Virus record (IMG/VR): IMGVR_UViG_3300034062_008208
Span: 1-48,536 of that record
DNA length: 48,536 nt
Strand: one strand, 5' to 3'
Source of the DNA: a virus
The position numbers and the translations under genes were made by a program. A model generated the notes under the pieces. That model saw nothing but the letters and a program-made list of their open reading frames with translations, was not told where the DNA came from and searched no databases. This document shows positions 4,130-43,886 of the stretch, piece after piece. Every line of letters begins with the position of its first letter. Position 1 is the first letter of the stretch.

Positions 4130-4561
4130 ATGCAAAATACAGATTTAATTAAAGAATTATTAAATAATAATGTGAATATGATATTAGTAGGAAGCTATGC
4201 TGCTAATTATTATGGATATAATGTTAAAAGTGGATCAAATGATATAGATTTTATAATTGATAGTTCATCTAAAAATTTACATAATATTTATGATATTTTA
4301 AAAAGATATAATGCTGATTTAATTTTAGAAGATTTATTAAAAAGTTATGTAATTAGGAGTATTATTAGGGAGACTAATGAAAAAATAGATATGTTTAGAT
4401 TTTCAAGTAAAAGTCCTCATATCAACTATGATTCTCTATACGAACAAAATGAATATATTATAGATTATTTTTATGATATAACTACTAAAATTATTTCACA
4501 AAATAAGCTAAAAGAAATGATAAAATTAAGCGAATCAATTAAATATAATAACATATTATGA
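4130..4561 (+). CDS. Nucleotidyltransferase-fold protein
   Basis: 143 residues from ATG 4130, with AGGA at 4124-4127; an in-frame TTG at 4109 lies inside the terminator stem and is rejected. ILVGSYAANYYGY at 18-30 and NDIDFII at about 37-43 form the GS-x(n)-DxD signature of the nucleotidyltransferase superfamily. IDMFRF at about 89-94 could supply the third acidic residue. The superfamily transfers NMP to proteins, RNA or small molecules, and includes MNT/AbiEii-type toxins. No HEPN or antitoxin partner is adjacent. It overlaps the next gene by 4 bases. Substrate unknown. Confidence 0.65.
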   Translation: MQNTDLIKELLNNNVNMILVGSYAANYYGYNVKSGSNDIDFIIDSSSKNLHNIYDILKRYNADLILEDLLKSYVIRSIIRETNEKIDMFRFSSKSPHINYDSLYEQNEYIIDYFYDITTKIISQNKLKEMIKLSESIKYNNIL

Positions 4562-7551
4562 AAATAATTAATATACTACAATATGAAGCACAAGAAAGTA
4601 CAGGAACTTGTTGTTGTTTATACGCAGGAACAATAAATACTTGTGCTAATTGTCCTCCTCCATGTGTTTGTGGAGGAAGCGAGGGTAGTTTAGGTTGTAA
4701 TTGTAATGCTACGATTGGTTGTGAGCAAAATACAGATTGTGATAGTCAGATCTGTATAGAAACGTGCCAGGCTTTAAGTAAACCAGTCCCTTTTGCTGGT
4801 ATAATACCTGGATCTTGTCCGACATCGCCACCTCCACCTCCACCGCCACCTCCTCCACCGCCACCTCCTCCACCGCCTCCTCCACCGCCTCCTCCACCAG
4901 TTCCACCACCTCCTCCGCCAGTTCCACCACCTCCTCCGCCGGTTCCACCACCTCCTCCGCCGGTTCCACCACCTCCTCCGCCGGTTCCACCACCTCCTCC
5001 GCCGGTTCCACCACCACCTCCGCCAGTTCCACCACCTCCTCCGCCAGTTCCACCACCACCTCCGCCAGTTCCACCACCTCCACCACCTCCTCCACCACCT
5101 CCACCACCGCCTCCTCCACCGCCACCTCCTCCACCACCGCCACCTCCTCCGCCTCCTCCTCCGCCACCTCCTCCACCTCCGCCGCCTCCACCTCCGCCAT
5201 CACAAACGCCTAATCCGACACCTCCTGTAACACCAACACCAACACCAACTAGCACTCCAGCCCTTTTTACATCTTGTGATTGTTGTTTTAATATTTGTGT
5301 CGAATCATATATAGAAACAAATGATTGTAATATACAAGTTCCAAAATCCACACTAACAACAGTTTCTTGCTCATCAAAAATATATGATACAATTAATAAA
5401 CATTTATTAAATACTAATACTGAAAATTGTCTACAATATTCTCAATTTAATGTAATTAATAAAAATAATGAATTTCAAATAAATGGTGAAATTAATCCAT
5501 GTTTATTATTACAAAGATGCGCAACATATACCTTTTATCTTAAAGGAATCGAACCTTTACAATTTTGGTTTCAAACTGAACCATATACTGATGGACCAAT
5601 ATATACTAATGGAATAACCAATAATGGTTTTTCAACAGGATATATTACATTTCAAGTACCAGATAATGCTCCATTATTCTTATACTATTCATCACCAGGA
5701 TCATTATCATATGGAAATATATATATTCCTCTTAAAAATAATAATCAAATAGATAATAGTTTAACACATTTACCATCAAGAAGTTTCAAAAAAATAGAAG
5801 ATAATAATTATGATATTATCATGTTTGGTAATTGTGAAAATATAGAAATTTTAGCAGAATCAGAGAATAGATGTTATGGATGTGAATATCCGTATGCTAG
5901 ACAAGTCAAGGTGCTTTGTGAAACACAATCTTGCGATATTGTGAAAGATTTGCCGGGCGCTAGTTTAAATCCATCACCCTTTGTTAAACCACCTATATCA
6001 AATAATAAGTGTACTCCAACTCCTACACCAACCCCAACCCCAACAAGAGCCCCGATATCGTCTCCGCCACCACCTCCACCACCGCCACCACCGCCACCTC
6101 CTCCGCCACCACCACCACCACCACCACCACCTCCACCGCCACCCCCACCACCACCTCCACCACCACCGCCGCCCCCACCACCACCTCCACCACCTCCACC
6201 ACCGCCGCCCCCACCACCACCGCCGCCCCCACCGTCTCCACCACCTCCTCCACCGCCAGTAAGTAATAGTGCTAATTTTAGGACTTATGCTAATTGGAAT
6301 AGGCAACGCGGTAATGTTACAACCGTTGGAACTAATGGGGGGCCAAGCTCTTATGGAACATATGATCAGAGCGGAAATGTGAATGAGTGGAATGATTTAA
6401 ATGATACTGCCGGCTCGTCTCGTGTGCTTCGGGGCGGCGGCTGGCCCAACGACGCGTCCAACTTGTCGTCCTCCGACAGGTTCCCTGCCGTCCCGTTGTT
6501 CGAGAACTACTACTACGGTTTTCGTCTCGCTAGTCGTTTCGTTACCCTTAACCCTTTAAATCTTTCATACTTTGTAAATGTGGGTGATAGTGGTAATAGT
6601 AACGATGTTACTGGCTATGGCGGCGTAAGTTATGAGTATGTTATAGCTCAATACGTTGTTACCAACTGTGAGTATGCCGCGTTTTTAAATGCGGTAGCAA
6701 GTACTGATACTTATAATTTATATAATACTCTTATGGATGATGATTATAGGGGTGGAATAACTAGAAGTGGCTCTAGTGGTAGTTATACTTATAGTGTTAA
6801 GACCGATATGGGTAACAAGCCAGTAGTTTATGTTAGCTGGTTCGACTGTGCCCGATATTGCAACTGGCTTCACAATAATAAACCATCTGGAACACAAAAT
6901 ACTAATACTACCGAGGACGGAGCATATACTCTTAACGGAACGATTAATGGAGATGCTGTACCAAGTAATCCTGGCGCTAAATATCACCTTCCTACAGAAA
7001 ATGAATGGTATAAAGCAGCCTATTACAAGAGTGGCGGGACTAATGCTGGATATTGGAAATATGCTACTCAAAGCGATACGGATCCGACACCAGTTGTTGC
7101 TGATAGTTCTGGAAACGGAATATTAAACGATAAGCCAGCAAACACCAGCAAATACGTTTGTCCTGCAACAGCTCCATCTTACATACCAAAATGTGAGTCT
7201 ATTAAAAACACTAAAAATAATATAGCTATTACTGCTGGAAATAAATCATCCATTATGATTATAGCAACAGGATCTAATGCTGTTAAATCGGGGTATTTAC
7301 AGATTATGGGACCATCGGCACCACAGAATACTTATTTTGATCCTGTTATTTGGGATGGTAATCAAAATGGTACAATGTTTGTTACAGGAGATATTATTTC
7401 GTTTAATTCATCTGTAATCGATAATATTACTTTAGAACCTTTTGGATTATCCACAAATAAAAGCTATATGATAGAAGTTGTACCAACTATATCTTCTATA
7501 GTAACTAATTATCCAGGATCTCAAACTTTAGCTATACGTGATTGTTTATGA
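4558..7551 (+). CDS. Giant polyproline protein with permuted FGE/C-type-lectin module carrying a DGR-like variable region
   Basis: 997 residues. Order: a Cys-rich head (1-88); a polyproline tract (about 90-214) with nine Val spaced every seven residues; a Thr/Pro linker; a Cys-containing beta-rich region (about 236-480) that includes TDGPIYTNGITNNGFSTGYI and VPDNAPLFLYY, similar to a beta-sandwich module of phage structural proteins; a second polyproline tract (about 501-566); the C-terminal half of an FGE-sulfatase/C-type-lectin-like domain (about 570-661, GTYDQSGNVNEWN then RVLRGGGW and GFRLAS); the N-terminal half of the same domain (about 668-868, KPVVYVSWFDCARYCNW and [13 protein letters not shown]); and a C-terminal beta-rich domain. 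The module lacks the catalytic cysteines of formylglycine-generating enzyme, so binding is more likely than catalysis. Residues 622-661 are encoded by a GC-rich, DGR-like variable region. Likely a virion-surface or receptor-binding protein (inference). There is no clear signal peptide. Confidence 0.8.
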   Translation: MKIINILQYEAQESTGTCCCLYAGTINTCANCPPPCVCGGSEGSLGCNCNATIGCEQNTDCDSQICIETCQALSKPVPFAGIIPGSCPTSPPPPPPPPPPPPPPPPPPPPPPPPVPPPPPPVPPPPPPVPPPPPPVPPPPPPVPPPPPPVPPPPPPVPPPPPPVPPPPPPVPPPPPPPPPPPPPPPPPPPPPPPPPPPPPPPPPPPPPPPPPPPSQTPNPTPPVTPTPTPTSTPALFTSCDCCFNICVESYIETNDCNIQVPKSTLTTVSCSSKIYDTINKHLLNTNTENCLQYSQFNVINKNNEFQINGEINPCLLLQRCATYTFYLKGIEPLQFWFQTEPYTDGPIYTNGITNNGFSTGYITFQVPDNAPLFLYYSSPGSLSYGNIYIPLKNNNQIDNSLTHLPSRSFKKIEDNNYDIIMFGNCENIEILAESENRCYGCEYPYARQVKVLCETQSCDIVKDLPGASLNPSPFVKPPISNNKCTPTPTPTPTPTRAPISSPPPPPPPPPPPPPPPPPPPPPPPPPPPPPPPPPPPPPPPPPPPPPPPPPPPPPPPPPSPPPPPPPVSNSANFRTYANWNRQRGNVTTVGTNGGPSSYGTYDQSGNVNEWNDLNDTAGSSRVLRGGGWPNDASNLSSSDRFPAVPLFENYYYGFRLASRFVTLNPLNLSYFVNVGDSGNSNDVTGYGGVSYEYVIAQYVVTNCEYAAFLNAVASTDTYNLYNTLMDDDYRGGITRSGSSGSYTYSVKTDMGNKPVVYVSWFDCARYCNWLHNNKPSGTQNTNTTEDGAYTLNGTINGDAVPSNPGAKYHLPTENEWYKAAYYKSGGTNAGYWKYATQSDTDPTPVVADSSGNGILNDKPANTSKYVCPATAPSYIPKCESIKNTKNNIAITAGNKSSIMIIATGSNAVKSGYLQIMGPSAPQNTYFDPVIWDGNQNGTMFVTGDIISFNSSVIDNITLEPFGLSTNKSYMIEVVPTISSIVTNYPGSQTLAIRDCL
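4827..5199 (+). repeat. Polyproline-coding tract 1, with a 21-bp tandem unit
   Basis: About 124 codons of CCN, with CCA, CCT and CCG interspersed. Between 4900 and 5070 a GTT (Val) codon recurs exactly every 21 bases, nine times, giving PPPPPPV heptads. The strand is nearly free of G except at CCG and GTT. All frames on both strands are free of stops here, which creates long spurious ORFs. Confidence 0.95.
6060..6258 (+). repeat. Polyproline-coding tract 2
   Basis: About 66 CCN codons with one Ser near the start and one near the end. It separates the central beta-rich region from the FGE/C-type-lectin module of the same protein. Confidence 0.95.
6421..6540 (+). other. Candidate DGR variable region (VR) in the C-type-lectin-like domain
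   Basis: By hand count 73 of 120 bases are G or C and only 14 are A, in a gene that is otherwise AT-rich. After the conserved GGGW (626-629) come 24 codons before GFRL; 16 end in C (CCC, AAC, GAC, TCC, TTC, GCC, GTC, TAC and so on) and none ends in A. This is what results when AAC codons of a template are adenine-mutagenised to NNC. The position, between G-G-x-W and G-F-R of a C-type-lectin/FGE fold, is exactly where known DGR variable residues lie. The last 24 bases could be the initiation-of-mutagenic-homing site. No template copy or reverse transcriptase is visible in this window. Confidence 0.75.
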
Positions 7552-9830
7552 AATTATTAAAACTAGAAAAATTAAATATAAATAATAGTATAAATACTAT
7601 ATTAAATGTTCAACCTCAAGCAGACACATCACCGCGACCCCCTGGCTGTCCGTGTTGTAAATATACTAAAGATTGTGATGCTAATTCTTTTATATGTAAT
7701 AAACAAATTAATCCTCCAATACCATGCGGCATAGCAATACCGGTAGGTGGTGTAATGGGAGTACCATGCGTTGTTTTTCCCTTTGACACCTGTCAGAATC
7801 TTGTGTTTCCTGACGGCGCATTTGCACGATGTGGAGATCCAGTAAATGGAGTAAGATTATGCGAATATCCTCCTTGTGTAGATGGTAATAAATGCAGCGA
7901 AGTAGTAAATGGAAATTGTAATGAGTGTAATAACTCTTGCACATGCGATAATGTAGCTGATGCTCCGATTCAATTTACAGAAGAATGTGAAAAAGATCCA
8001 AACCAACCACAAATTCCTTGTAAAAATCCAGAAGATTGTGGTGGCAAATGCATTAATGGAGAATGTTTTACTTGCAAATGTGTTGCTAGCTACTCACCTT
8101 CTTCTGAGGAATGCAAGCGCAATCAGGGGGCTGACAATAATTTTGATCCTAATATATGCGAAAACATAAAGGCTAATCATCGAGAACTCGCAGATTCCGA
8201 AGCAGAGGCAGTCAAAGATCGGCCGCCAGAAACAGAAACTTGTTATTTTGATCGTGATGGTTGTATTAATTATTTAACTTGTAGACAATTTAGTGGGCCA
8301 GAAAGATTGAGCACTTGTCAATGTATGCAAAGTTGTAATGATCGAGGAGGACAATTTTCCATAGAAAAACCAGAAGATTGGTGTCCAAATAATGGAAAAG
8401 GTCGCGCTTTAAGTGGCAAATGCTCAGAATGCGGAGGAGGAGGAGGAGGAGGAGGAGGAGGAGGAGTTCCTCCCGGTGTTCCCGGAGTTCCCGGCGTTCC
8501 GGGTGTTCCTCCCGGTGTTCCCGGCGTTCCGGGTGTTCCTCCCGGTGTTCCCGGCGTTCCCGGCATTCCTCCCGGTGTTCCAGGCGTTCCTGGGTCGCCA
8601 CCACCGCCACCACCGCCACCTCCACCACCGCCACCACCACCACCACCACCACCACCTCCGCCAGATGTCGCTCGAGATTTTATCTTAACAAAAAATACTG
8701 TTCATCATAAAAATCCTGTAAATACTTTTATAGGATATTTTAAAATGAATAATCAAGACGATCAAAGTAAATGGTTTAATAATTTAAATAATGATTACTC
8801 ATTTAGTTTAGTAAATAATAGTAATGCACAATTTAGTAGTGATAATGGATCTTTTAGTATAACAGAAAAAAATAAATTATATATTCAAACAATAACAGAT
8901 TATAAAATAAAAAATAAATACTATATAACCGTTAAGTCCGATCATTCAACAGAACAATCAATAACTAAAAATTTTATCATTCTTGTTCTACCTCCTGATC
9001 ATGACGATGCTAACGATCCAGCCTGTTCATGCTATAGTTCGCTATATTTTAGAAATTACAATAATGTTAAAAATTATAATGATAAATTATATCATGTTAT
9101 CAAAATATATAAATCAGGATCAACCACACCAGTTTTTACAAGCGATCCTTTACAAACCTATGGAGAGTTAGTACAGATTTTTAATAACAAAACTTTTAAT
9201 TGTGATCCTACTACAGTTGAGATAAAAATTGCTTCACCGCCACCTCCACCACCACCTCCTCCACCGCCACCACCTCCGCCACTTCCTCCACCCCCGCCGC
9301 CTCCTCCACCTCCACCGCCTCCTCCACCGCCACCACCACCTCCTCCACCGCCACCACCACCTCCTCCTCCACCGCCACCACCGCCTCCTCCACCGCCACC
9401 ACCACCACCTCCTCCACCTCCTCCACCACCACCACCACCACCACCTCCACCGCCTCCTCCACCGCCTCCTCCACCGCCTCCTCCACCGCCTCCTCCACCG
9501 CCACCACCTCCTCCACCGCCTCCTCCACCGCCTCCTCCACCGCCACCACCTCCTCCACCGCCACCACCGCCACCACCGCCACCACCACCTCCTTCACCGC
9601 CACCACCACCTCCGTCCTGTTCGGGAGATTTGGATTGCGAAACATTGTGTTGTAATCCTTACGCTGGATGTATACCATTAGGATTAGCCGCTATAGTTTC
9701 CGTAAATACCCCATGCTCAAATTATGCTGGTGATTATGAAGGAAGCAATGGTACTCTAATATGGTGCTGTGATGGTATTGGCGTCGCTAGACCTACCGGA
9801 TATTGTTGTAATCAAAGTAATATGTATTAG
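7548..9830 (+). CDS. Giant Cys-rich protein with Gly, GVP and polyproline tracts and a cadherin-like domain
   Basis: 760 residues from ATG 7548, overlapping the previous stop (ATGA); an in-frame TTG at 7542 is less likely. A Cys-rich N-terminal region (about 30-295) has spacings like small disulphide-rich or EGF-like repeats (DCGGKCINGECFTCKC). Then come a poly-Gly run (296-306), collagen- or elastin-like GVP/PGVPGVPG repeats (about 306-348), polyproline (about 350-372) and a cadherin-like beta domain (about 373-490: FIGYFKMNNQDD, FSLVNNSNAQF, YYITVKSDH). A beta-rich stretch follows, then a 127-residue polyproline tract with one Leu and one Ser, and a Cys-rich tail (CCNPYAGC, YCCNQ). Disulphides imply folding outside the reducing cytoplasm or in the virion. 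Likely an extended surface or fibre protein (inference). Confidence 0.75.
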   Translation: MKLLKLEKLNINNSINTILNVQPQADTSPRPPGCPCCKYTKDCDANSFICNKQINPPIPCGIAIPVGGVMGVPCVVFPFDTCQNLVFPDGAFARCGDPVNGVRLCEYPPCVDGNKCSEVVNGNCNECNNSCTCDNVADAPIQFTEECEKDPNQPQIPCKNPEDCGGKCINGECFTCKCVASYSPSSEECKRNQGADNNFDPNICENIKANHRELADSEAEAVKDRPPETETCYFDRDGCINYLTCRQFSGPERLSTCQCMQSCNDRGGQFSIEKPEDWCPNNGKGRALSGKCSECGGGGGGGGGGGVPPGVPGVPGVPGVPPGVPGVPGVPPGVPGVPGIPPGVPGVPGSPPPPPPPPPPPPPPPPPPPPPPDVARDFILTKNTVHHKNPVNTFIGYFKMNNQDDQSKWFNNLNNDYSFSLVNNSNAQFSSDNGSFSITEKNKLYIQTITDYKIKNKYYITVKSDHSTEQSITKNFIILVLPPDHDDANDPACSCYSSLYFRNYNNVKNYNDKLYHVIKIYKSGSTTPVFTSDPLQTYGELVQIFNNKTFNCDPTTVEIKIASPPPPPPPPPPPPPPPLPPPPPPPPPPPPPPPPPPPPPPPPPPPPPPPPPPPPPPPPPPPPPPPPPPPPPPPPPPPPPPPPPPPPPPPPPPPPPPPPPPPPPPPPPPPPPPPPPPPPPPPSPPPPPPSCSGDLDCETLCCNPYAGCIPLGLAAIVSVNTPCSNYAGDYEGSNGTLIWCCDGIGVARPTGYCCNQSNMY
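8433..8665 (+). repeat. Poly-Gly, GVP and polyproline coding repeats
   Basis: GGA repeats about ten times, then come GTTCCC/GGCGTTCC-type 9-bp units coding GVP and PGVPGVPGVP, then about 20 CCN codons. The GVP block is GC-rich and consists of near-identical units, so it is prone to slippage. Confidence 0.9.
9235..9616 (+). repeat. Polyproline-coding tract, about 127 codons
   Basis: This is the longest near-uninterrupted proline run in the window, broken only by one CTT (Leu) near the start and one TCA (Ser) near the end. It is built from permuted CCTCCTCCACCG and CCACCACCG blocks. Confidence 0.95.
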
Positions 9831-16445: not shown

Positions 16446-19400
16446 ATGTCAACTCCTCCAATTTATTCTATCTTAGGAAACTGTAATAGCGCTAATTATA
16501 GTAAGAACGGAAATGCTTCCTCGGATTGGAATAATGAAAATGGTAATGTTACCAGCGTTGGCAGCAATGGTAATGATAGTTTTTTTGGCACTTATGATCA
16601 AAACGGTAATGTTTATGAAATTATAGACTATCAACCATCGTCATTTTTTATTCAGTTATATGGAGGTAGTTATTCTTCTTTAACAGCAAATGATTCTATT
16701 GATAGTTCTTTAAGTTTAAGAAGAGACGATGTTGGATTTAGAGTATGCGCTAATAGTGGAACAACAACAGCGTTTGATTCTATTACAGTTTCTGGTACAG
16801 GCAATAATAACGATACTAATGGAATTGGTCAAGTAAATTACAATTATAAAATTGGTAAATTTACTATTACAAATACTCAATATGTAGAATTTTTAAACGC
16901 TGTTGCTAATAGTGGATCGCCCGCATTAATACAAACTAGTGTTTGGCCTTTTCAACGACTAATGCAGGATTCTAATCGTGGAGGAATAATAGTAAACGGC
17001 TTTAGCCCAAATATGTCTTATTCTGTAAAAACGAATTTTGCAGATAAACCAGTTAATTACGTTACTTGGTATAATGCGGCTAGATATATTAATTGGTTAC
17101 ATAACGGAAAACCAAATTCGTCTACTTTATCATTAAATTCTACAGAAAATGGTGTTTATTATCTTAATTTTGAAAATAATGTTACAACTATACCAACCAT
17201 AATAAATAATAAAAATACATATTGGCTACCAGATAGAAATGAATGGTATAAAGCGGCCTACTATACATTAGATAAAAATGGCTCAGGTTCCGGATATTGG
17301 TTATATGCTACGCAATATGATACTGCTCCAGATTCAATTGTTTCTAATAGTAGTGGCGTTGCCAACAATACAGTAACAACACCGGACATTTGTATTAGCC
17401 CAACACCTACCCCCAGCGTTACTCCTACTTATTCTCCTACTCCTTCTTTAACGGCTAGTCCTACTCTTACTCCAACTAAAACAGCAACAAGCACCCCAAC
17501 AGTCACATCTTCTGTAACAACCACTCCAACACTAACACCAACCAAAACGCCAACAGCCACCATAACTCAAACAAGAACACCTAATTTAACTGTTAGTCCA
17601 ACAAAAACACCTACACGTACTCCAACAAGGACACCAAGTTTAACACCATCAACAACAGAAACACGTACTCCAACACCTACAGTTACCAGTTCTTCGACGG
17701 TAACCCCTACTCCGAGTAAGAGTCTTTGCTCTTCTATAACAGTTGGAGAACTAATTTATAATCCTATTTATACTAATGAAAATATTAGAATAATTTATAA
17801 AGGTTTTACATTTGAATCCTTTATTAACAATAGACAATTACTAGTCAATGGCGGTCAATTAGGAAATGCCGATATAAATATTGGACTACAAGAAATTCCT
17901 AATGCTAGTCAAACCCCAACTCCTACATTAACGCCAACCAATACTAGTACTCCAACCATCACACCAACAAATACTTCCACAACTACTAGTACTCCAACTG
18001 TTAGCCCAACACAAACAAACACAGCTTCTGTAACACCAACTAATTCTATTACTCCAACAGTTACAATTACTTCAACAGCGACACCGACACCTAGTATAAC
18101 CGCAAGTCAAACTCCAACACCGTCTATAACGCCAACACTTACACCAACAACAACAGTTACAAATACAGTAACATCAACAGCAACTCCCACTGTAACTAGC
18201 TCAAACACAACAACTCCAACTAATACTCCAACTAACACAGCAACTCCTACAAACACACCAACATTTACTCCATCTTCAACAACAACTCCTACTGTTACTC
18301 CAACAGTGACAGTAACCCCAACACCACTAGCATTTGCTCCATTATCAAATAGTATAAATTATGCTAATTCCGGTAATTGGAATGGATCTGTTTCTGGTAA
18401 TCTAACAACGGTAGGAACAAATGGAGGTCCAAGTTTTTATGGAACATATGATCAAAATGGAAATATTTCTGAAATAGCTTTAAGTGTTGTTAATAATACT
18501 GATTTAATTTTCAGTATCGGTGGTAATTTTGAAACTGCAACAGGAGATCTAAGATTATTAGAAAATATAAATGAAAATACTTTGGATAAAAATATAGGTT
18601 TTAGAATTGTTACCACAGGCAATCCTCTTAACTTGCCTTATTTCATAGATATTGTTGATAGTGGAAATAGTGCAGATACTAATGGGGTTGGATCTGTTAA
18701 TTATAATTATAAGATAAGTCAATATACAATAACTAACTGTGATTATATACAATTCTTAAATGCTGTTTCTACACAGAGCGATACTAATGATACTTATAAT
18801 GTTCAAATGTCTGGCGATCCATATGGTGGTATTATAAGAAGCACAGGATCAGCACCATATACTTATACTTTAAAAACTAATTTTGATAATAAACCAATTA
18901 ATTTTCTTAATATAAAAAGCATGATGAGATATTGTAATTGGTTACATAATGGTAAACCAATAGGAATACAAGATTTCAGTACAACAGAAGAAGGTGCATA
19001 TATATTAGATCCGATTGGTATAACTCCACAAGTAAGTTTAATTGCAAGCAATGGTGCAAAATATACACTACCAACATTAAACGAATGGTATAAAGCTGCT
19101 TATTATAATCCAAGAAAAAATGGATGGGGTAATGGCGGATATTGGACCTATGCTACACAAAGTGATAGTTTACCAGATAGAATTTGCTCTAGCGCTAGTG
19201 GAGATGGTAGATTAATTATCAGTAATGTTTGTTCAAACACAGAAGGTAATTCTTCTACTATCCTTTGTACGTTTACCCCTACTCCAAGCGTAACTCCTAC
19301 CAATACCCCAACAACAACAATTACTAGAACCCCTACTAATACTCCTACTAATACTCCTAGTCTAACTCGAACAATAACTCCGACAACAACCCTATCTCTA

Positions 19401-21512
19401 ACACCAACATCTACTTTAACTCCAACACAAACTATAACAAATACACCAACATCAACTATTGGCGGTACTCCAACAGTAACTCCTACATTAACATCAACTC
19501 CTACGAATACTCCTTCTGTAACTGTTAGTCCGACATCAAGTGCTACGCCAACAATCACACCAACTACTACTACAACTCCAACAACAACAATTATTGTAAC
19601 TCCAACAACAACCCCAACGGTTACTCCTACAGAAACTCCAACCGTTACTCCAACAACAACCCCAACAGTTACTCCCACAACAACGATTACTCCAACTGTT
19701 ACTATAACACAAACACCAACAACAACTCCAACCGTTACTCCAACAGAAACTCCAACCCTTACTCCTACAGAAACGCCAACTGTTACACCGACGCTCACCT
19801 CTACACCAACAGAAACACCAACACCAACAGTAACACCGACACCAACAGCTACAGAGGGTTTAACACCAACTCCTACCCCATCTGTAACAGAAACCCCAAC
19901 AGTTACTCCAACAGAAACACCAACAACAACCCCAACAGTTACTCCAACAGAAACACCAACAACAACCCCAACAGTTACTCCAACAGAAACACCAACAACA
20001 ACCCCAACAGTTACTCCAACAGAAACACCAACAACAACCCCAACAGTTACTCCCACAGAAACCCCAACCGTTACTCCGACAACAACCCCAACTGTTACTC
20101 CCACAACAACGATTACTCCAACTGTTACTATAACACAAACATCAACAACAACACCAACAACCACGCCAACAATTACACAAACCATTACTCCTTCTTCGAC
20201 ACCAATAGCCGGATGGATTCAAAGAGGTGTAGATATTGATGGCGAGGCAGCTAATGATTACAGTGGAAGTAGTGTTGCTATGAATAATGATGGTACCGTA
20301 GTAGCAATAGGAGCATATAGCAACGATGGAAATGGAACAGACAGTGGACATACTAGAATATATGCTTGGAACGGAACCTCTTGGATTCAAAGAGGAAATG
20401 ATATTGATGGTGAAGCAGCTTTTGATACAAGTGGATACAGTGTTAGTCTCAATAATGATGGAGATATAGTAGCAATCGGAGCAAATGGAAATAATGGTAA
20501 CGGGACCGATAGCGGAAGCGTAAGAGTATATGTTTGGAATGGTTCAGTATGGACTCAACGAGGAAGTGATATTGATGGAGAAGCAACCAATGATGCTAGT
20601 GGTATTAGCGTTTCTTTAAATAGCGACGGCACCGTACTAGCAATAGGAGCGTCTTTAAATGATGGTAATGGAACCGATAGCGGTCATGTACGAGTATATA
20701 ATTGGAATGGTTCAGCATGGACACAACGAGGAAGCGATATTGATGGAGAAGCGGCAAGTGATTATAGTGGACAAAGCGTTAGCTTAAATGATAATGGAGA
20801 TATATTAGCTATTGGAGCATATGGTAATGATAGTAATGGAAATAATAGCGGTCATGTACGAGTATATTCTTGGAATGGCTCAGTATGGACTCAAAGAGGA
20901 AACGATATTGATGGTGAATCAGCTAACGATGCTAGTGGTTTTAATATTAGTATTAATAGTGATGGTACTATACTAGCGATAGGAGCAGGTGGAAATAGCG
21001 ATAATGGAACAGCTAGCGGCCATACCAGAGTGTATGTTTGGAATGGTACTTCTTGGGTTCAAAGAGGAAGCGATATTGATGGAGTAGCAGCAAATGATAA
21101 TAGTGGTCTTAGTGTATCATTAAATAATGATGGTAGCATATTAGCTATTGGATCGCCATATAATGACACAAACGGTACCAATAGTGGACATGTACGAGTA
21201 TATTCTTGGAATGGTAGTTCTTGGACGCAAGTTGGCGATAATATTAATGGAGAAACATCTTTAAATTATAGTGGAATTAGTGTTCATCTTAATGGAGATG
21301 GTACAATATTAACTATCGGAGCCTCTGGTAATAGTGATAATGGAGCTAGTAGTGGTAGTGTACGAGTATATAGATTAATTGGTATCTCTTTTACGCCCAC
21401 GCCAACAAAAACCTTAACACCCACACCAACTAAAACACCAACAACAACACCAACAGTAACTCCTTCAAAAACAGCATATTATTCAGGCCAACAATATAAT
21501 TTTATTCCATAA
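16446..21512 (+). CDS. Giant modular adhesin: two permuted FGE-like modules, Thr/Pro linkers, seven-repeat propeller
   Basis: 1688 residues. Order: FGE/C-type-lectin-like module 1 (about 10-315), with the C-terminal half first ([21 protein letters not shown]) and the N-terminal half second ([33 protein letters not shown]); a Thr/Pro linker (317-425); a small domain (426-487); a linker (488-630); module 2 (633-925), permuted the same way; a very long Thr/Pro linker (about 940-1252); seven repeats of about 56 residues (1255-1646), each with W-x-Q-x-G-x-D-I-D-G-E, S-x-D-G-x-x-x-A-I-G and H/S-V-R-V-Y-x-W-N-G, forming a probable seven-bladed beta-propeller; and a short linker tail. Neither module has FGE catalytic cysteines or a GC-rich variable stretch. 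Likely virion-surface, with O-glycosylatable linkers (inference). Confidence 0.8.
19897..20076 (+). repeat. 36-bp tandem repeat in a Thr/Pro linker
   Basis: The word CAACAGTTACTC recurs at 19897, 19933, 19969, 20005 and 20041, exactly 36 bases apart, and the intervening bases are nearly identical. Each unit codes 12 residues of the [12 protein letters not shown] type. It is a protein-coding repeat, not a CRISPR array. Confidence 0.9.
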
Positions 21513-37540: not shown

Positions 37541-39529
37541 ATGATTATAACTTATTTCCGTAGTTCGTCTTATAATGCCCATTCTATGTGCGAACAACAA
37601 TATTTTTTTGAATATGTACTAGGATGGAGGGGCCCAAGTGGACAAAAGGCGGATAAAGGAACAATAGTCCATAAAGTTTTAGAAATTCTTGCCATGATCA
37701 AACAAGGTCAGCAAGATAAATTATCTCATATAAATGATGACGAATTCTTAGGTCTTATAGATATAAATGACTATAGTCTTAATACCATAATAGAAAAAGT
37801 ATACAAGCATTATAGTACCGCTAATAGTCATCATACTTGGACTCTAAAAGATTATAAGGACTGCTATAATTGGGTTTACAAGGCTATAGAATTTAATGGC
37901 GGTATGTTTGATCCTAGAAATCGCACCATTCTTAGACCAGAACAACACTTTGATTTGGTAATAGAAAAACCATGGGCTAAATACGAGTATAATATTAATA
38001 ATCAAAAACTAGATGGATATTTGGGCTTAAAAGGCACTATAGATCTTATAACTTTGGCTAATGATAATACTATTGAGGTCATAGATTGGAAAGGATTGCC
38101 ATTAGATACAAAATTACCTACTCTTGACGGATGGACAACAATTGCAGATATAAATGTGGGATGTAATGTCTTTGATCAATACGGTAATATATGTCGCGTT
38201 GTTGGAAAATCAAAAGTCAAAACAAAAAAATGTTTCAGAGTAACTTTTGATGACAAAACATCGGTAATTTGTGACGATGAGCATTTATGGAAATTATCTA
38301 ATGGTGAAACGGTATCTATACAGGATCTAGTTATTGGCGATACTATTAATGTGACAAAACCATTAAAATGTAATGAACAATCCCTACCAATAGATCCTTA
38401 TCTATTAGGAGTCTGGTTAGGAGACGGAAGAAATAGAGGCTGCGAGATTAGTGGCAATGATACTGAAATTTTTGAAGAAATACAAGCAAGAGGTTATGAG
38501 CTAGGAAAAATTCAAAATGATAAAAGATCAAAAAATAAGACAGTATCGATCCTAAATGTGACAAAAATACTAAAATCTTTAAATCTATTGAATAATAAAC
38601 ATATACCAAAAATTTATTTGAGAGCATCTTTTCAACAAAGGCTAGACTTACTAAGGGGTTTGATGGATACAGACGGAAATGTAAATCCAATTAGAAAACA
38701 AACTGTGTTTACTTCTTGTAATAAAAAACTATCCGACGATGTTAAAGACCTACTTTTAACCCTTGGGCAAAGACCGAATCAAGCGTGTATTAAAAGAGAT
38801 ACAAATTACAAAAAAAACGTAATCATATATCCTATTTCGTTTCGTCCAATTGACATTAATCCTTTTCTATTGAGCAGGAAAAAAGAACTTGTGGATGTAA
38901 ATTGGGGATCTGGAAGATCTAGGGTTAGACGAGTTTCTAAAATAGAAGAATCGATTATACAAAAAACTCAATGCATTTCCGTAGACAGTCCAGACAATAC
39001 TTATCTGTGTACAGAAAATTATATTCCAACACATAATACTGGACGAAGACTAGATTGGGCAACAGGACAAGAAAAAACACAAGAAAAATTAGAAAAAGAT
39101 CCTCAACTCAAAATCTATCATTATGCTATTAAAAAACTGTATCCTCATATAGAGAATGTTATTTTTTCCATATATTTTATTAATGATGGTGGTCCTTTTT
39201 CTATGGTTTTTCATGATAGCGATCTTGCCGATACTGAAAATATGTTACGTCAAAAATTTGAAATCATTAAACAAACTAAACGACCACGATTGAATAAAAG
39301 TTGGATGTGTAATAAATTATGTCATTTTGGTAAGACTACATTTGCTAATACTAATATTGAGCCATTGAAAGAGTATAGGGATGGACAAATATGTCAAAAA
39401 GATTCGATCATGACAAAATGTGAACAAGTGAAGCACGACCTTGAACTTTACGGGATCGATGCTACAATGAGTATGTACAAGCACCCGAATCATTCTTTTG
39501 GATCCTACAAAGCACCCGGAACCGTATGA
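37541..39529 (+). CDS. Cas4/RecB-like PD-(D/E)XK nuclease interrupted by an intein
   Basis: 662 residues before splicing; about 347 after removal of the 315-residue intein. Extein motifs: SMCEQQYFFEYVLG with Cys17; GTIVHKVLE with His44; GTIDLI with Asp168; EVIDWK-TGRR, the catalytic D182-x-K184 split by the intein; and Q522-L-K-I-Y526 of the family's Q-x-x-x-Y motif. The C-terminal C590-x(3)-C594 with Cys17 might hold an iron-sulfur cluster as in Cas4/AddB (uncertain). Such nucleases process DNA ends in recombination. The position between kinase and polymerase fits a replication/recombination role. AGGATATC precedes ATG 37541. Confidence 0.85.
   Translation: MIITYFRSSSYNAHSMCEQQYFFEYVLGWRGPSGQKADKGTIVHKVLEILAMIKQGQQDKLSHINDDEFLGLIDINDYSLNTIIEKVYKHYSTANSHHTWTLKDYKDCYNWVYKAIEFNGGMFDPRNRTILRPEQHFDLVIEKPWAKYEYNINNQKLDGYLGLKGTIDLITLANDNTIEVIDWKGLPLDTKLPTLDGWTTIADINVGCNVFDQYGNICRVVGKSKVKTKKCFRVTFDDKTSVICDDEHLWKLSNGETVSIQDLVIGDTINVTKPLKCNEQSLPIDPYLLGVWLGDGRNRGCEISGNDTEIFEEIQARGYELGKIQNDKRSKNKTVSILNVTKILKSLNLLNNKHIPKIYLRASFQQRLDLLRGLMDTDGNVNPIRKQTVFTSCNKKLSDDVKDLLLTLGQRPNQACIKRDTNYKKNVIIYPISFRPIDINPFLLSRKKELVDVNWGSGRSRVRRVSKIEESIIQKTQCISVDSPDNTYLCTENYIPTHNTGRRLDWATGQEKTQEKLEKDPQLKIYHYAIKKLYPHIENVIFSIYFINDGGPFSMVFHDSDLADTENMLRQKFEIIKQTKRPRLNKSWMCNKLCHFGKTTFANTNIEPLKEYRDGQICQKDSIMTKCEQVKHDLELYGIDATMSMYKHPNHSFGSYKAPGTV
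38093..39037 (+). mobile_element. Intein with LAGLIDADG homing endonuclease, class 3-like
   Basis: Residues 185-499 of the nuclease. The start GLPLDTKLPTLDGWTT has no Cys or Ser at position 1. The end is IPTHN with Thr500 as +1 residue. Splicing residues fit class 3 inteins (WCT): Trp250 in DDEHLW (block B), Cys478 in QCISVD (block F) and Thr497 just before His498-Asn499. Two LAGLIDADG helices are visible: YLLGVWLGDG (288-297) and DLLRGLMDTDG (369-379), with an acidic residue in each, so the endonuclease may be active. The boundaries restore a continuous VIDWKTGRR in the host protein. Confidence 0.88.
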
Positions 39530-41394
39530 CTTATTCAGTACTACATTGTCATTCTCATTTTTCATTATTGGATGGCTTAAATAGACCAGAGCAAATTGCC
39601 ACCAGATGTGCCAAACTGGGCATAAAATCATGCGCCTTAACAGATCATGGTAATATTGCTGGATCGGTACAGTTTTATCAGAAAATGAGATCTAAGAATA
39701 TTAAACCTATTCTTGGATGCGAATTATATATTTGTGAAGATGATCCATCAATACAAACAAAAGAGAATGCTTCCTTGTCGCATTTTCTCGTACTTGCTAA
39801 AAATTTAAAAGGCTGGAAAACACTCATCAAAATAGTCTCGGAATCAAATAGGCCAGATTATTTTTACCATAAGCCAAGACTAAGTATCAAAAAATTATCA
39901 GAATTACTAGATGGTAACATAATAGGTGTTTGTGGTCATTTGGGATCGACCCTATCGGATATTATCTTAAAAGATCAGGATAATAGTATTTCTAATGGTC
40001 TTTCTTTTATAGACAATATGAAAACTATATTCGGTGATAATAATTTTTATTTGGAAACACAATTATTCGATAAAGACTATCTAAAAGAACAAGTCTATTT
40101 AACAGAAACGATTAGGCGACTATCCGAATTAAGTAAAATTAAGGCAGTATCTACTCCCGATGCTCATTATTGCGAACAAGACGACGCTATAGACCAAAGG
40201 ATTCTTCTTTGCAATAATTTAAAAACAACACTATCTGATATTAATACTAAATTAATTAATAATCAAAGTATTCCTATGGAGTGCTTCTTTAAAAGTGATA
40301 AATATTATATCCTATCTCCAGAAGAGATGACGAACCTACATAGTCCACAGGAAATAGAAAATACAATTTTTGTCGATAGCTTAATAGAAGAGTTCGACAT
40401 CTTATCTGCTCCAAAATTGCCTAATTTTGATTGTCCAGAAAACTATGATCCTGATGAATTTTTAAGGGAATTGTGTAGAGTTGGATGGAAAAATAAAATC
40501 ATTCCAAATATTCCAAAGGATGATCATCAAGTTTATGTAGATAGAATAAAATATGAGTTAGATATATTACAAGGTGCTAGTTTATCTAGTTATTTTTTAA
40601 TTGTGCAAGATATAGTCAACCATGTTAGACATAATAACTGGCTACCTGGACCGGGCAGAGGAAGTGGGGCTGGGTGTCTGGTTTCTTACCTTGTTGGTAT
40701 CACAGATATTGATCCCATGAAATATGATTTATTATTCGAAAGATTTTATAATGCTGGTAGAAATACTAAAGATAGAATCTCTATGCCAGATATTGATATA
40801 GATATTCCAATCGATAAACGCGAACAAGTATTAGAATACATAAAAAATAAATATGGACACAGTAAAGTATCTCAAATGATTACTTTTAATACTATGAAAG
40901 GTAGAGGGGCACTAAAAGACGTATTGCGAGTATATGGTAATATTAGTTTCGAAGAGATGAATACTATTACTAAGTTTATTCCTGACGAAGCTAAGATAGC
41001 GGACGAGCTTCAAGAAATGAAAGAAGATACTGGAGAAGCATCTATTATCAGATGGGCTCTAGAAAATAATACGGATAAACTAAAAGAATGGTGCTATATA
41101 TCTGAAGAGGACGGGACTTTATCTGGGCCTCTATCTAAAAGATTTGAACAGGCAATAAGATTGGAGGGAACAAAATCTAATCAAAGCAAACATGCTGCTG
41201 GTGTAATAATAGGTACTCAAGACCTTGCGTCTTTATGCCCGATGGTCTATGATAACAGAAATGATCAGCTTATCGCTGGCATGGAGATGAACGATCTAGA
41301 GAGTTTGGGTCTAATAAAATTTGACATATTGGGTATCGCATATTTGGATAAAATTATGTCAGTATCAGAATATTTAAAACACGGAGAACTATAA
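39526..41394 (+). CDS. dnaE: DNA polymerase III alpha, N-terminal part (PHP and catalytic palm)
   Basis: 622 residues. The PHP domain begins LHCHSHFSLLDG, with LTDHGN, ILGCELY and STPDAHY carrying metal ligands, so it looks intact. The palm has GPGRGSGAGCLVSYLVGITD and SMPDIDIDI (the catalytic Asp pair, about 422-424), and the third Asp in IKFDILGI (about 600). The protein then stops, where cellular DnaE (about 1160 residues) continues into the fingers. The missing part is encoded 0.9 kb downstream at 42273-43886. Together they should form the replicative polymerase. The start overlaps the nuclease stop (ATGA). Confidence 0.9.
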   Translation: MTYSVLHCHSHFSLLDGLNRPEQIATRCAKLGIKSCALTDHGNIAGSVQFYQKMRSKNIKPILGCELYICEDDPSIQTKENASLSHFLVLAKNLKGWKTLIKIVSESNRPDYFYHKPRLSIKKLSELLDGNIIGVCGHLGSTLSDIILKDQDNSISNGLSFIDNMKTIFGDNNFYLETQLFDKDYLKEQVYLTETIRRLSELSKIKAVSTPDAHYCEQDDAIDQRILLCNNLKTTLSDINTKLINNQSIPMECFFKSDKYYILSPEEMTNLHSPQEIENTIFVDSLIEEFDILSAPKLPNFDCPENYDPDEFLRELCRVGWKNKIIPNIPKDDHQVYVDRIKYELDILQGASLSSYFLIVQDIVNHVRHNNWLPGPGRGSGAGCLVSYLVGITDIDPMKYDLLFERFYNAGRNTKDRISMPDIDIDIPIDKREQVLEYIKNKYGHSKVSQMITFNTMKGRGALKDVLRVYGNISFEEMNTITKFIPDEAKIADELQEMKEDTGEASIIRWALENNTDKLKEWCYISEEDGTLSGPLSKRFEQAIRLEGTKSNQSKHAAGVIIGTQDLASLCPMVYDNRNDQLIAGMEMNDLESLGLIKFDILGIAYLDKIMSVSEYLKHGEL

Positions 41395-41577
41395 ATGCTA
41401 ACAAAAACTTTAGATCAAGTTGCTGCTGGCGAAATATTCAAGGTTAATAATATTAACTATGTCAAAATCGCCGAGGTTCGTGTCAGTTGTTGCAGAACCG
41501 TGAACTGTCACGTTCTAGAAGATAGTAATCAAAGGACTTTTTTCCCAGGAAACACAGTTGTGGAGACTAATGGCTAA
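41395..41577 (+). CDS. Small protein between the two polymerase halves
   Basis: 60 residues, ATG directly after the TAA of the polymerase N-part. Beta-rich by appearance: GEIFKVNNINYVKIAEVR, then SCCRTVNCHVLED and TFFPGNTVVE, with three Cys close together. The pattern is like short beta-barrel proteins of phages, with no function known to me. It overlaps the exonuclease start by 8 bases, where GTGGAG provides a ribosome site. Confidence 0.65.
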   Translation: MLTKTLDQVAAGEIFKVNNINYVKIAEVRVSCCRTVNCHVLEDSNQRTFFPGNTVVETNG

Positions 41578-42271
41578 TTTACAAAAAATTTGTGTATTCG
41601 ATTTAGAAACGGACGGGGCTAATCCCGATATTTGTAGCCCCGTTCAAATCGCTGCTGTTATTATCGATCCTTATAAATTAGAAATAATCAAAGATTCAGA
41701 ATTTAATATCAATCTAAAGCCCCAAGCAATACAAGATAATCCAGAATATATATATGATGATTCAGATGTTCTGGATTTTCATGCCAAAGTTAGAGGATGT
41801 GATAAAACAAAAATCTTAGAAGATTGGAGATCTTTCCAGAAACAAGACAGTGGATGGAAAATGTTTGTATCATATTTGGAAAAATATCATATAAGATCTG
41901 ATAAAAAATCTTGCTTTACAGCTCCTATTGCTGCTGGCTATAATATTAATAGATTCGATCTAAGAATTATAGATAGATTAAGCATAAAATATAATAATGT
42001 CAATAAGGAGGGACGAACATCTCTATTTTATCCACGAGATGTTATTGACTTAATGAACGTTATTTTTTATTGGTTTGAAGGTAATAATGAGCTTAAAAAC
42101 TATACACTTGATAATGTTAGAGAATATTTAGGATTAGGAAATAGTGGCTCTCATGATGCTCTAAATGATGTTAGGGCAACAGCTGATATTTTGATAAGGT
42201 TTATGAAATTACATAGAAATTTATCGAATAAGGTAAAATTCAGAAACGCCTTTGCTCTTGCAAAAAATTGA
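41570..42271 (+). CDS. dnaQ: DnaQ-like DEDDh 3'-5' exonuclease
   Basis: 233 residues from ATG 41570, with GTGGAG 5 bases upstream. Exo I is FDLETDG (Asp11, Glu13), Exo II is AGYNINRFDLRII, and Exo III is SHDALNDVRATADIL with His and Asp five apart, so DEDDh type. The family removes mispaired 3' ends. Being placed between the two polymerase alpha genes, it very probably proofreads for this polymerase as the epsilon subunit does in bacteria (inference from context). No clamp-binding motif was identified with confidence. The symbol names the family member type. Confidence 0.88.
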   Translation: MANLQKICVFDLETDGANPDICSPVQIAAVIIDPYKLEIIKDSEFNINLKPQAIQDNPEYIYDDSDVLDFHAKVRGCDKTKILEDWRSFQKQDSGWKMFVSYLEKYHIRSDKKSCFTAPIAAGYNINRFDLRIIDRLSIKYNNVNKEGRTSLFYPRDVIDLMNVIFYWFEGNNELKNYTLDNVREYLGLGNSGSHDALNDVRATADILIRFMKLHRNLSNKVKFRNAFALAKN

Positions 42272-42272
42272 A

Positions 42273-43886
42273 ATGACTCAATATTTTACTTTTGATTGTG
42301 GATGTAAGTTCAAGGTTTTGGAATATACCTCAGAAGGAATTCCAAAAATAGAATTTACAGGTAAGTTGAGCGATCTTAATCTTGATTGTTCAAAAACATG
42401 GTCTATGATCGGAGATGGTAATACCAAGGGTGTATTTCAACTAGAATCAAGGTTAGGTTCTAGTATGGCTAAAAAATTAAAACCAGAGAATATAGAACAA
42501 CTATCTGCCCTAATTAGTATTATGAGGCCAGGATCTTTGGAAGCTTATAGAGATGGTAAAAGTATTAGTCATCATTATATAGACAAAAAGAATGGTCAAG
42601 AAAGCTTAGACTATTTTCACCCATCCCTTGAGCCATCATTAAAATCAACCTATGGAGAGATGATATATCAAGAACAGGCCATGCAAATCGCGCAAGCGGT
42701 GGCTGGTTTTGATCTACAAGAGGCAGATATGCTGCGTAAAGCAATTGGCAAAAAGAAGCCAGAAGAAATGGCTAAGATCAGGGTAAAGTTTAAGGATGGT
42801 GCTAAAAAACTGAATATAGTCAACGACGAAGAAATAGACGAAATATTTAGTTGGATTGAAAAAAGTCAAAGATATTCTTTTAACAAAAGCCACGCTGTGT
42901 CATATGCTATGAATGCATATTCTTCGGCTTATGCAAAAGCTCATTTTGCTAAAGTATTTTTTGCATCATACCTTAAATTTGCAAAAGATAAAATGGATCC
43001 TCAAAAAGAAATAAAAGAACTAATACGTAATGCAACAGAAATGGATGTGATTGTATGTGTTCCTGATGTAAGAAAGCTTAATAAGCATTTTACTATTAGC
43101 GATGATAAAATATATTTTGGTCTTACCGATATTAAGGGTGTCGGTTATTCTGTTTATGATAAATTATTAACTATTATTAAAGACTTAGATATAAATAATA
43201 TATCTTGGAATACATGTTTAGTTAAAGTTTTAACAAAAATTAATTCCACAGCAGCTAAAGCATTAATATCATGTGGCGCTTTAGATCATCATAATATCAC
43301 CCGTACAAAAATGTTATTTGAATACGATATAATATCTGAATTAACTTCTAGAGAATTAGATCTATTAGACTTGGAAAAGTCGTCTATTGCACAATCTTTA
43401 CATGGTTTATTGACACAAAATAAAATTAATATTAAGCGAAAAAGTAGCATACAAAATCTTATCAATTTATATAACAATCCGCCATATTCATTAGATGATA
43501 AAATAGAATGGCTATCTGATACAGAAAATGCTTTATTAGGGGCCTCTATAACTTGTTTTAAGATAGATTCTTATGATATTAGTATGACAAATTGTGATTG
43601 TAAAGCTTTCAAGACTACCAACGCATCAAAAAATATTATTTTAGCAGGAGAAATTAGTTCCATCAACTTTGTCAAAACAAAAAACGGCAAAAATCCTGGG
43701 GCTGAAATGGCCTTTGTCACAATAGAGGATCAATTTGCATCACTAGACTCAGTAATATTATTTCCTGAGCAATTATCAAAATATCGTAACTATCTATTCG
43801 ATGGTAATGTACTAATATTCTTAGGTAATAAAAGTTCTAAAAAAGATTCTTTTATAGTGGAGAAATGTTTTATACCAAGATCTTGA
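42273..43886 (+). CDS. dnaE: DNA polymerase III alpha, C-terminal part (fingers and tail)
   Basis: 537 residues from ATG 42273 (TTG 42252 is an in-frame alternative; neither has a good ribosome site). After a 40-residue lead with FDCGCKFKVLE it enters the DnaE fingers at GVFQLESRLGSSMAKKLKPENIEQLSALISIMRPG. SYGEMIYQEQAMQIAQAVAGFDLQEADMLRKAIGKK follows, then RYSFNKSHAVSYAMNAYSSAYAKAHF, the helix-hairpin-helix region and an OB-fold (ILAGEISSINFVKTKNGK). It has no catalytic Asp of its own, so it must pair with the N-part. Its last codons hold the left arm of an inverted repeat around the ssb promoter. Confidence 0.88.
   Translation: MTQYFTFDCGCKFKVLEYTSEGIPKIEFTGKLSDLNLDCSKTWSMIGDGNTKGVFQLESRLGSSMAKKLKPENIEQLSALISIMRPGSLEAYRDGKSISHHYIDKKNGQESLDYFHPSLEPSLKSTYGEMIYQEQAMQIAQAVAGFDLQEADMLRKAIGKKKPEEMAKIRVKFKDGAKKLNIVNDEEIDEIFSWIEKSQRYSFNKSHAVSYAMNAYSSAYAKAHFAKVFFASYLKFAKDKMDPQKEIKELIRNATEMDVIVCVPDVRKLNKHFTISDDKIYFGLTDIKGVGYSVYDKLLTIIKDLDINNISWNTCLVKVLTKINSTAAKALISCGALDHHNITRTKMLFEYDIISELTSRELDLLDLEKSSIAQSLHGLLTQNKINIKRKSSIQNLINLYNNPPYSLDDKIEWLSDTENALLGASITCFKIDSYDISMTNCDCKAFKTTNASKNIILAGEISSINFVKTKNGKNPGAEMAFVTIEDQFASLDSVILFPEQLSKYRNYLFDGNVLIFLGNKSSKKDSFIVEKCFIPRS

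Follow-up and report, generated by a model that had tools for sequence, protein, structure and literature searches.

A putative variable repeat of a diversity-generating retroelement in a virus gene, apart from reverse transcriptase and template

Introduction

How did a short GC-rich segment with the codon signature of a diversity-generating retroelement (DGR) come to lie in an AT-rich virus gene, and from where could its template have come? The segment is found in record IMGVR_UViG_3300034062_008208, a linear virus fragment from IMG/VR of 48.5 kb and 33.6% GC, which was analyzed over its full length of 48,536 nucleotides and is called the window here. An original prediction had placed a DGR variable region at positions 6421–6540, within a domain of the formylglycine-generating enzyme (FGE)/C-type-lectin fold, and had seen neither a reverse transcriptase (RT) nor a template. 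The phage DGRs known to us carry their own RT and template. The parts of the target gene and the second FGE gene (16446–21512) lie on the plus strand.

Results

The virus record and the target gene

Matches to PHROGs were obtained for a sigma factor, a head maturation protease, a ribonucleotide reductase and a UvsX-like recombinase, and also for DnaB-like helicase, terminase-like and DNA polymerase genes. Judged by these matches the record is consistent with a piece of a large tailed phage. The DNA polymerase is apparently divided into two ORFs (39526–43886; phrog_405 positions 42–615 and 610–1054) that flank an RNase_T-type exonuclease ORF. An intein may be present in the ORF at 37541–39529, which gave PD-(D/E)XK nuclease, terminase-like and LAGLIDADG-like matches.

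The target gene (4558–7551) encodes a protein of 997 amino acids, likely a surface protein, with a Cys-rich N-terminus, two long polyproline tracts, a permuted FGE domain and a short C-terminal region. The second polyproline tract (6064–6258) is located directly upstream of the FGE domain; this domain order makes a function as display stalk plausible, and we infer a receptor-binding role for the protein. The adjoining gene (7542–9830) also contains long polyproline tracts, together with polyglycine and collagen-like GVPGVPG repeats, and gave no Pfam match.

A circularly permuted FGE-fold domain

The FGE/C-type-lectin-fold domain comprises 297 amino acids (6244–7134) and was delimited using PF03781, an AlphaFold model and PDB 5aoh. 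The PF03781 score for the target protein was 67.3 bits, compared to a gathering score of 23.3, and was made up of two matched stretches in swapped order. The C-terminal half of the profile (positions 154–254) comes first, at 6259–6540. The N-terminal and middle part (positions 36–132, at amino acids 693–834) comes second, in a segment assigned to 6541–7140 by Pfam and related loci. The canonical N-to-C order of the fold is therefore absent, and PDB 5aoh, a solved FGE-fold protein, aligned in swapped order as well. An AlphaFold model built with 28 related permuted domains reached a pLDDT of 90.3 and a pTM of 0.92. A Foldseek comparison with the PDB yielded no significant match for the window domain, as expected because the chain is permuted; its top two hits were FGE-fold proteins including TvpA.

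Nearly all phage relatives retrieved with the window domain as query have the permuted order, and the bacterial relatives whose upstream part was assembled have the normal one. No phage relative was detected in INPHARED at E ≤ 1e-5, and a literature search revealed no earlier description of an FGE domain in permuted form. This conserved permutation, which the original prediction had missed, is a structural novelty in its own right. It gives the variable region, which normally lies at the 3' end of a gene, a mid-gene position. In two related loci, L017 (9746–10828) and L020 (9602–11848), FGE domains are broken elsewhere (middle, C-part, N-part); from this order of parts, the L017 domain and the first L020 domain are a different circular permutation from that of the window.

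The window domain matches the profile of formylglycine-generating enzyme above the cut-off, but it is permuted and contains no Cys in the RGGxW...R segment, which we take to be where FGE has its active-site Cys pair. This lack of Cys argues that the domain is probably not an enzyme. TvpA of Treponema denticola (PDB 2y3c), a DGR variable protein of the FGE/C-type-lectin fold, aligns to the half of the domain that bears the putative variable repeat (VR). TvpA is, however, a bacterial protein with normal domain order. By the PF03781 match, the TvpA alignment and the confident model, the VR sits in a ligand-binding-type fold. Two more permuted FGE domains without the GC-rich segment are encoded by a second gene (16446–21512) and served as internal control. 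Its product of 1,688 amino acids also contains Thr/Pro-rich linkers and FG-GAP repeats.

Composition and limits of the GC-rich cassette

A recount of 6421–6540 gave exactly the predicted 73 G+C and 14 A of 120 bases. Of the 24 codons that lie between GGGW and GFRL (6445–6516), 16 are NNC, again as predicted, along with 7 NNG, 1 NNT and no NNA. Outside this stretch, and with Pro codons left out, the third positions of the ORF are 31% A, 10% C, 9% G and 50% T. The GC content at third positions (GC3) of the cassette is 0.96. Among 8,483 windows of 24 codons from 15 larger ORFs, the mean was 0.20 (sd 0.11) and the highest value elsewhere 0.625. Such a value is not chance. The only other stretches of at least 60% GC in the record are polyproline and polyglycine tracts. 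At the equivalent site, the codons of both paralogous domains of the internal control (16446–21512) are of the ordinary AT-rich kind; thus, the fold does not impose the GC-rich composition. Misassembly was rejected because the reading frame is intact and independent samples agree.

The GC-rich patch itself was confirmed, but its predicted borders were not: an ungapped alignment of seven loci from viruses and bacteria of two phyla places the shared VR-like cassette at 6412–6530 (119 bp). Identity extends from GGCTCGTCTCGTGGGCTTCGG to GGTTTTCGTCTCGC, with divergence outside. The 5' constant segment GGCTCGTCTCGTGTGCTTCGGGGCGGC (6412–6438) is followed by a variable segment (6439–6516) of NNC codons among constant TGG, GCG, TTG TCG TCC TCC, AGG and GAG codons. 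The 3' constant segment GGTTTTCGTCTCGC (6517–6530) forms a conserved, sharp end of the VR, where the cross-genome identity stops abruptly at an IMH-like position. The window cassette matches the consensus at 85 of 89 constant positions. DGR targets are expected to have a hairpin or cruciform 4–34 bp downstream of the VR. Behind the window VR no GC-rich hairpin was detected, the search being for stems of at least 6 bp with a loop of 3–8 nt, and this speaks against a DGR target; by the same search, the VR of the canonical DGR L183 described below has none either.

The same cassette in other viruses and in bacteria

The same cassette occurs in at least three other AT-rich virus genes (L001, L002 and L051, on contigs of 120, 154 and 178 kb). 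These genes share the constant codons GCG..TTG TCG TCC TCC..AGG..GAG with the window and differ in their NNC codons. Motif searches also revealed it in FGE genes of MAGs, namely L134 (Chthoniobacterales), L212 (from the order of L134) and L094 (Planctomycetia). GC contents are 33–41% for the three viruses and 60–67% for these MAGs. Three further MAG loci (L354, L355 and L356), which together with L094 represent one Planctomycetota family, contain cassettes of somewhat different codon number. The MAGs carrying the cassette belong to Planctomycetota and Verrucomicrobiota. Among the matches listed in the motif scan of genome contigs most were chance and L094 and L134 were real; the one-mismatch matches in Verrucomicrobiota outside the MAG of L134 (G030) turned out upon inspection to be chance.

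Pairwise differences amounted to 0.11 at cassette sites off the adenines of an independent template (see below), compared to 0.46 and 0.67 in the 90-bp flanks. Decayed cassettes were observed in L014, L012 and L298. Five relatives (L003, L004, L005, L013 and L018) do not exhibit the cassette pattern; hence the activity is not universal.

Variation at template adenines

An independent template was available from L183, a canonical DGR of the Chthoniobacterales MAG G030 with RT, template repeat (TR) and FGE-PEP-CTERM VR on one locus, whose TR and VR differ at A in 23 of 23 cases. L183 is located at about 301–305 kb of contig C1, approximately 30 kb from L134. The latter is an orphan VR whose constant bases are unmatched by the L183 DGR and whose gene is apparently frameshifted. 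L183 resembles the window locus in its fold, the position of the VR, the 119-bp frame and the variation at adenine sites. It differs in possessing RT and template, in its constant codons (CTGCAGTCTTCC..CCGC, not those of the window) and in its normal domain order, in which the VR comes close to the gene's 3' end.

The cassettes were aligned to the L183 template by position, with just 62 of 89 constant sites in common. In this alignment virus cassettes were variable at 24 of 32 template A sites versus 21 of 87 other sites (p=6e-7), and bacterial cassettes at 24 of 32 versus 11 of 87 (p=2e-10). The window differs from the consensus of the other cassettes at 26 sites, 20 of which are A sites of the L183 template. 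Variation is concentrated at positions 1 and 2 of NNC codons, and the constant bases are nearly identical. In the viruses 55 of 56 variable codons end in C, compared to 38 of 254 elsewhere in the window domain. Synonymous differences among codons for the same residue, counted over all seven loci, were found in 44 of 460 cases (10%) inside the cassette and in 203 of 387 (52%) in the left flank. Against the DGR pattern, the adenines of the AGG and GAG codons, which would be expected in a template, are invariant across the seven aligned loci.

The shared cassette and the variable sites predicted by adenines make the patch look like a DGR variable repeat, an assignment strongly supported by these sequence comparisons. 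The prediction of a DGR variable region in this fold, varied as expected from mutagenized template adenines, therefore gained from the independent template, the NNC positions and the TvpA alignment. That a DGR wrote the cassette is well supported, and one may possibly serve it now. Against such present-day diversification, two strains of a related virus with a decayed cassette (L014 and L016, 97% identical over 9 kb) showed no change in the VR.

Search for reverse transcriptase and template

Searches with positive controls gave no RVT_1 match for the window or for 86 related virus records (29, 1, 6 and 50), some of 150–320 kb. Five cassette-bearing MAGs likewise gave no RVT_1 match, and the sixth contains a DGR with a different template. 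These RT negatives refer to the single profile RVT_1, and the incompleteness of MAGs and contigs limits them as well as the template negatives. A tblastn search with the L183 RT over the related loci retrieved only L183 itself and an unrelated RT in L096.

When the window was searched against itself for a template, with mismatches at adenines tolerated, the best off-target score was 12, compared to 145 for the VR itself. The same approach within 10 kb of the related loci yielded one marginal score of 25.5, in the cassette-less locus L020. Motifs fitting both template and VR detected no template among 2.9 million IMG/VR contigs, and no cognate template was found in about 970 genomes including the six cassette-bearing MAGs. 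A model template gave no near-identical match in phage and plasmid collections. The best phage match to most of it was the TR of Bordetella phage BPP-1, with 72% over 90%, a similarity that is partly circular because the model template was built with AAC codons.

The absence of RT and template noted in the original prediction was thus borne out and extended well beyond the window, although this empty search is also one half of what had been named as speaking against a DGR. Both components of a complete DGR are missing from the window and the related virus records searched, and the element is classed not as complete but as a DGR target without RT.

Discussion

Comparison with known systems

The mtd/brt DGR of BPP-1 also diversifies a C-type-lectin-fold phage protein at AAC-derived codons. 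Its RT, Avd and TR, however, adjoin a 3'-terminal VR with IMH and hairpin, none of which was found in the window. Retargeting of this DGR to a heterologous gene provided with IMH and hairpin has been shown (PMC3240598). Remote or partial DGR targets have been described within single cellular genomes, in Nanoarchaeota DUSEL4 (PMC4372165) and Thiohalocapsa PB-PSB1 (PMC10907252). They share with the window adenine-directed variation in target genes without an adjoining RT, but in these cases another part of the cellular genome itself is known or proposed to hold RT and template. The window target, in contrast, sits in a virus, and the related virus records contain neither.

Origin of the cassette

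The segment 6412–6530 is most simply explained as the product of a template-bearing DGR located outside the virus. Reverse transcription with adenine misincorporation would have used a template RNA whose variable positions are AAC codons. The cDNA would then have replaced the virus gene segment. In this way GC-rich constant codons would have become established in a genome rich in AT, and about 14 codons for the ligand-binding face of the FGE/C-type-lectin domain would have been randomized. Since the virus appears to encode neither RT nor template, a cellular or co-resident genome is the most likely source from which both would act in trans. We consider it rather probable that the cassette is the VR of such a remote DGR target, with its template outside the virus and probably supplied in trans. 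We infer this trans supply, as well as recent or ongoing activity.

The most serious competitor, though an unlikely one, is that the cassette is a bacterial DGR product which reached the virus by homologous recombination via its constant ends, so that ready-made variants are swapped and no retrohoming takes place in the virus gene. The constant 27-bp and 14-bp ends could be used as crossover sites, neither RT nor matching template was found in five of the cassette-bearing MAGs themselves, and among the decayed cassettes (L014, L012 and L298) one is identical between diverged strains; single sequences would look similar in either case. Yet every intact virus cassette has its own variable codons, none identical to the bacterial copies found, and the limits coincide despite otherwise unrelated flanks, as predicted for template-limited replacement. 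It is improbable that RT and template lie in an unassembled part of the virus genome: the record is a linear 48.5-kb fragment and relatives reach 230 kb or more, but the cassette-bearing relatives on contigs of 120, 154 and 178 kb contain no RVT_1 match, and collection-wide motif scans gave only the VR on each of them.

Acquisition of a GC-rich patch followed by ordinary diversifying selection at the binding site, with no DGR involved, is very improbable. Loops of the FGE fold are naturally variable, and relatives without the cassette vary at this site too. Selection on amino acids, however, does not hold C at the third base of 55 of 56 variable codons, leave constant codons nearly free of synonymous change at 33% GC, or direct the variation to sites where an independent template has A. 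Just as slight is the chance that the NNC codons of a mobile 119-bp unit common to phages and bacteria are written by some mechanism other than a DGR. Such a mechanism would agree with the absence of RT from all virus records searched and from five cassette-bearing MAGs, but the details of the pattern are those of DGRs, and one bacterial copy has a canonical DGR with the same fold about 30 kb away.

Implications and a second cassette type

If a DGR outside the virus is indeed the source, targeted hypermutation would be borrowable across genomes, and RT-centred surveys would overlook RT-less virus targets. This limit of such surveys for remote targets was stated by Roux et al. 2021 (PMC8144416). 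The cassette sequence makes RT-less targets searchable, and AACTTGTCGTCCTCCAACAGG can be used as search string for the supplier contig. As a tentative and still doubtful extension, large aquatic phages might keep short GC-rich docking cassettes, placed in genes of receptor-binding type, by which DGRs of hosts or neighbours rewrite phage binding sites in trans. The same cassettes might be exchanged between phages and the FGE-PEP-CTERM genes of two bacterial phyla, Planctomycetota and Verrucomicrobiota.

A second type of GC-rich cassette, TTGCAGTCGTCC..CCGC..GGTTTTCGTGTCGC (LQSSxR...GFRVA), was observed in FGE genes of other AT-rich viruses, clearly in L248 and L259 and in part in L244, L247, L255 and L256. 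No RT was found on the contigs of these viruses, which points to a repeated occurrence of RT-less targets among viruses. The genes with this second cassette type show the normal domain order, often with FGE domains in tandem.
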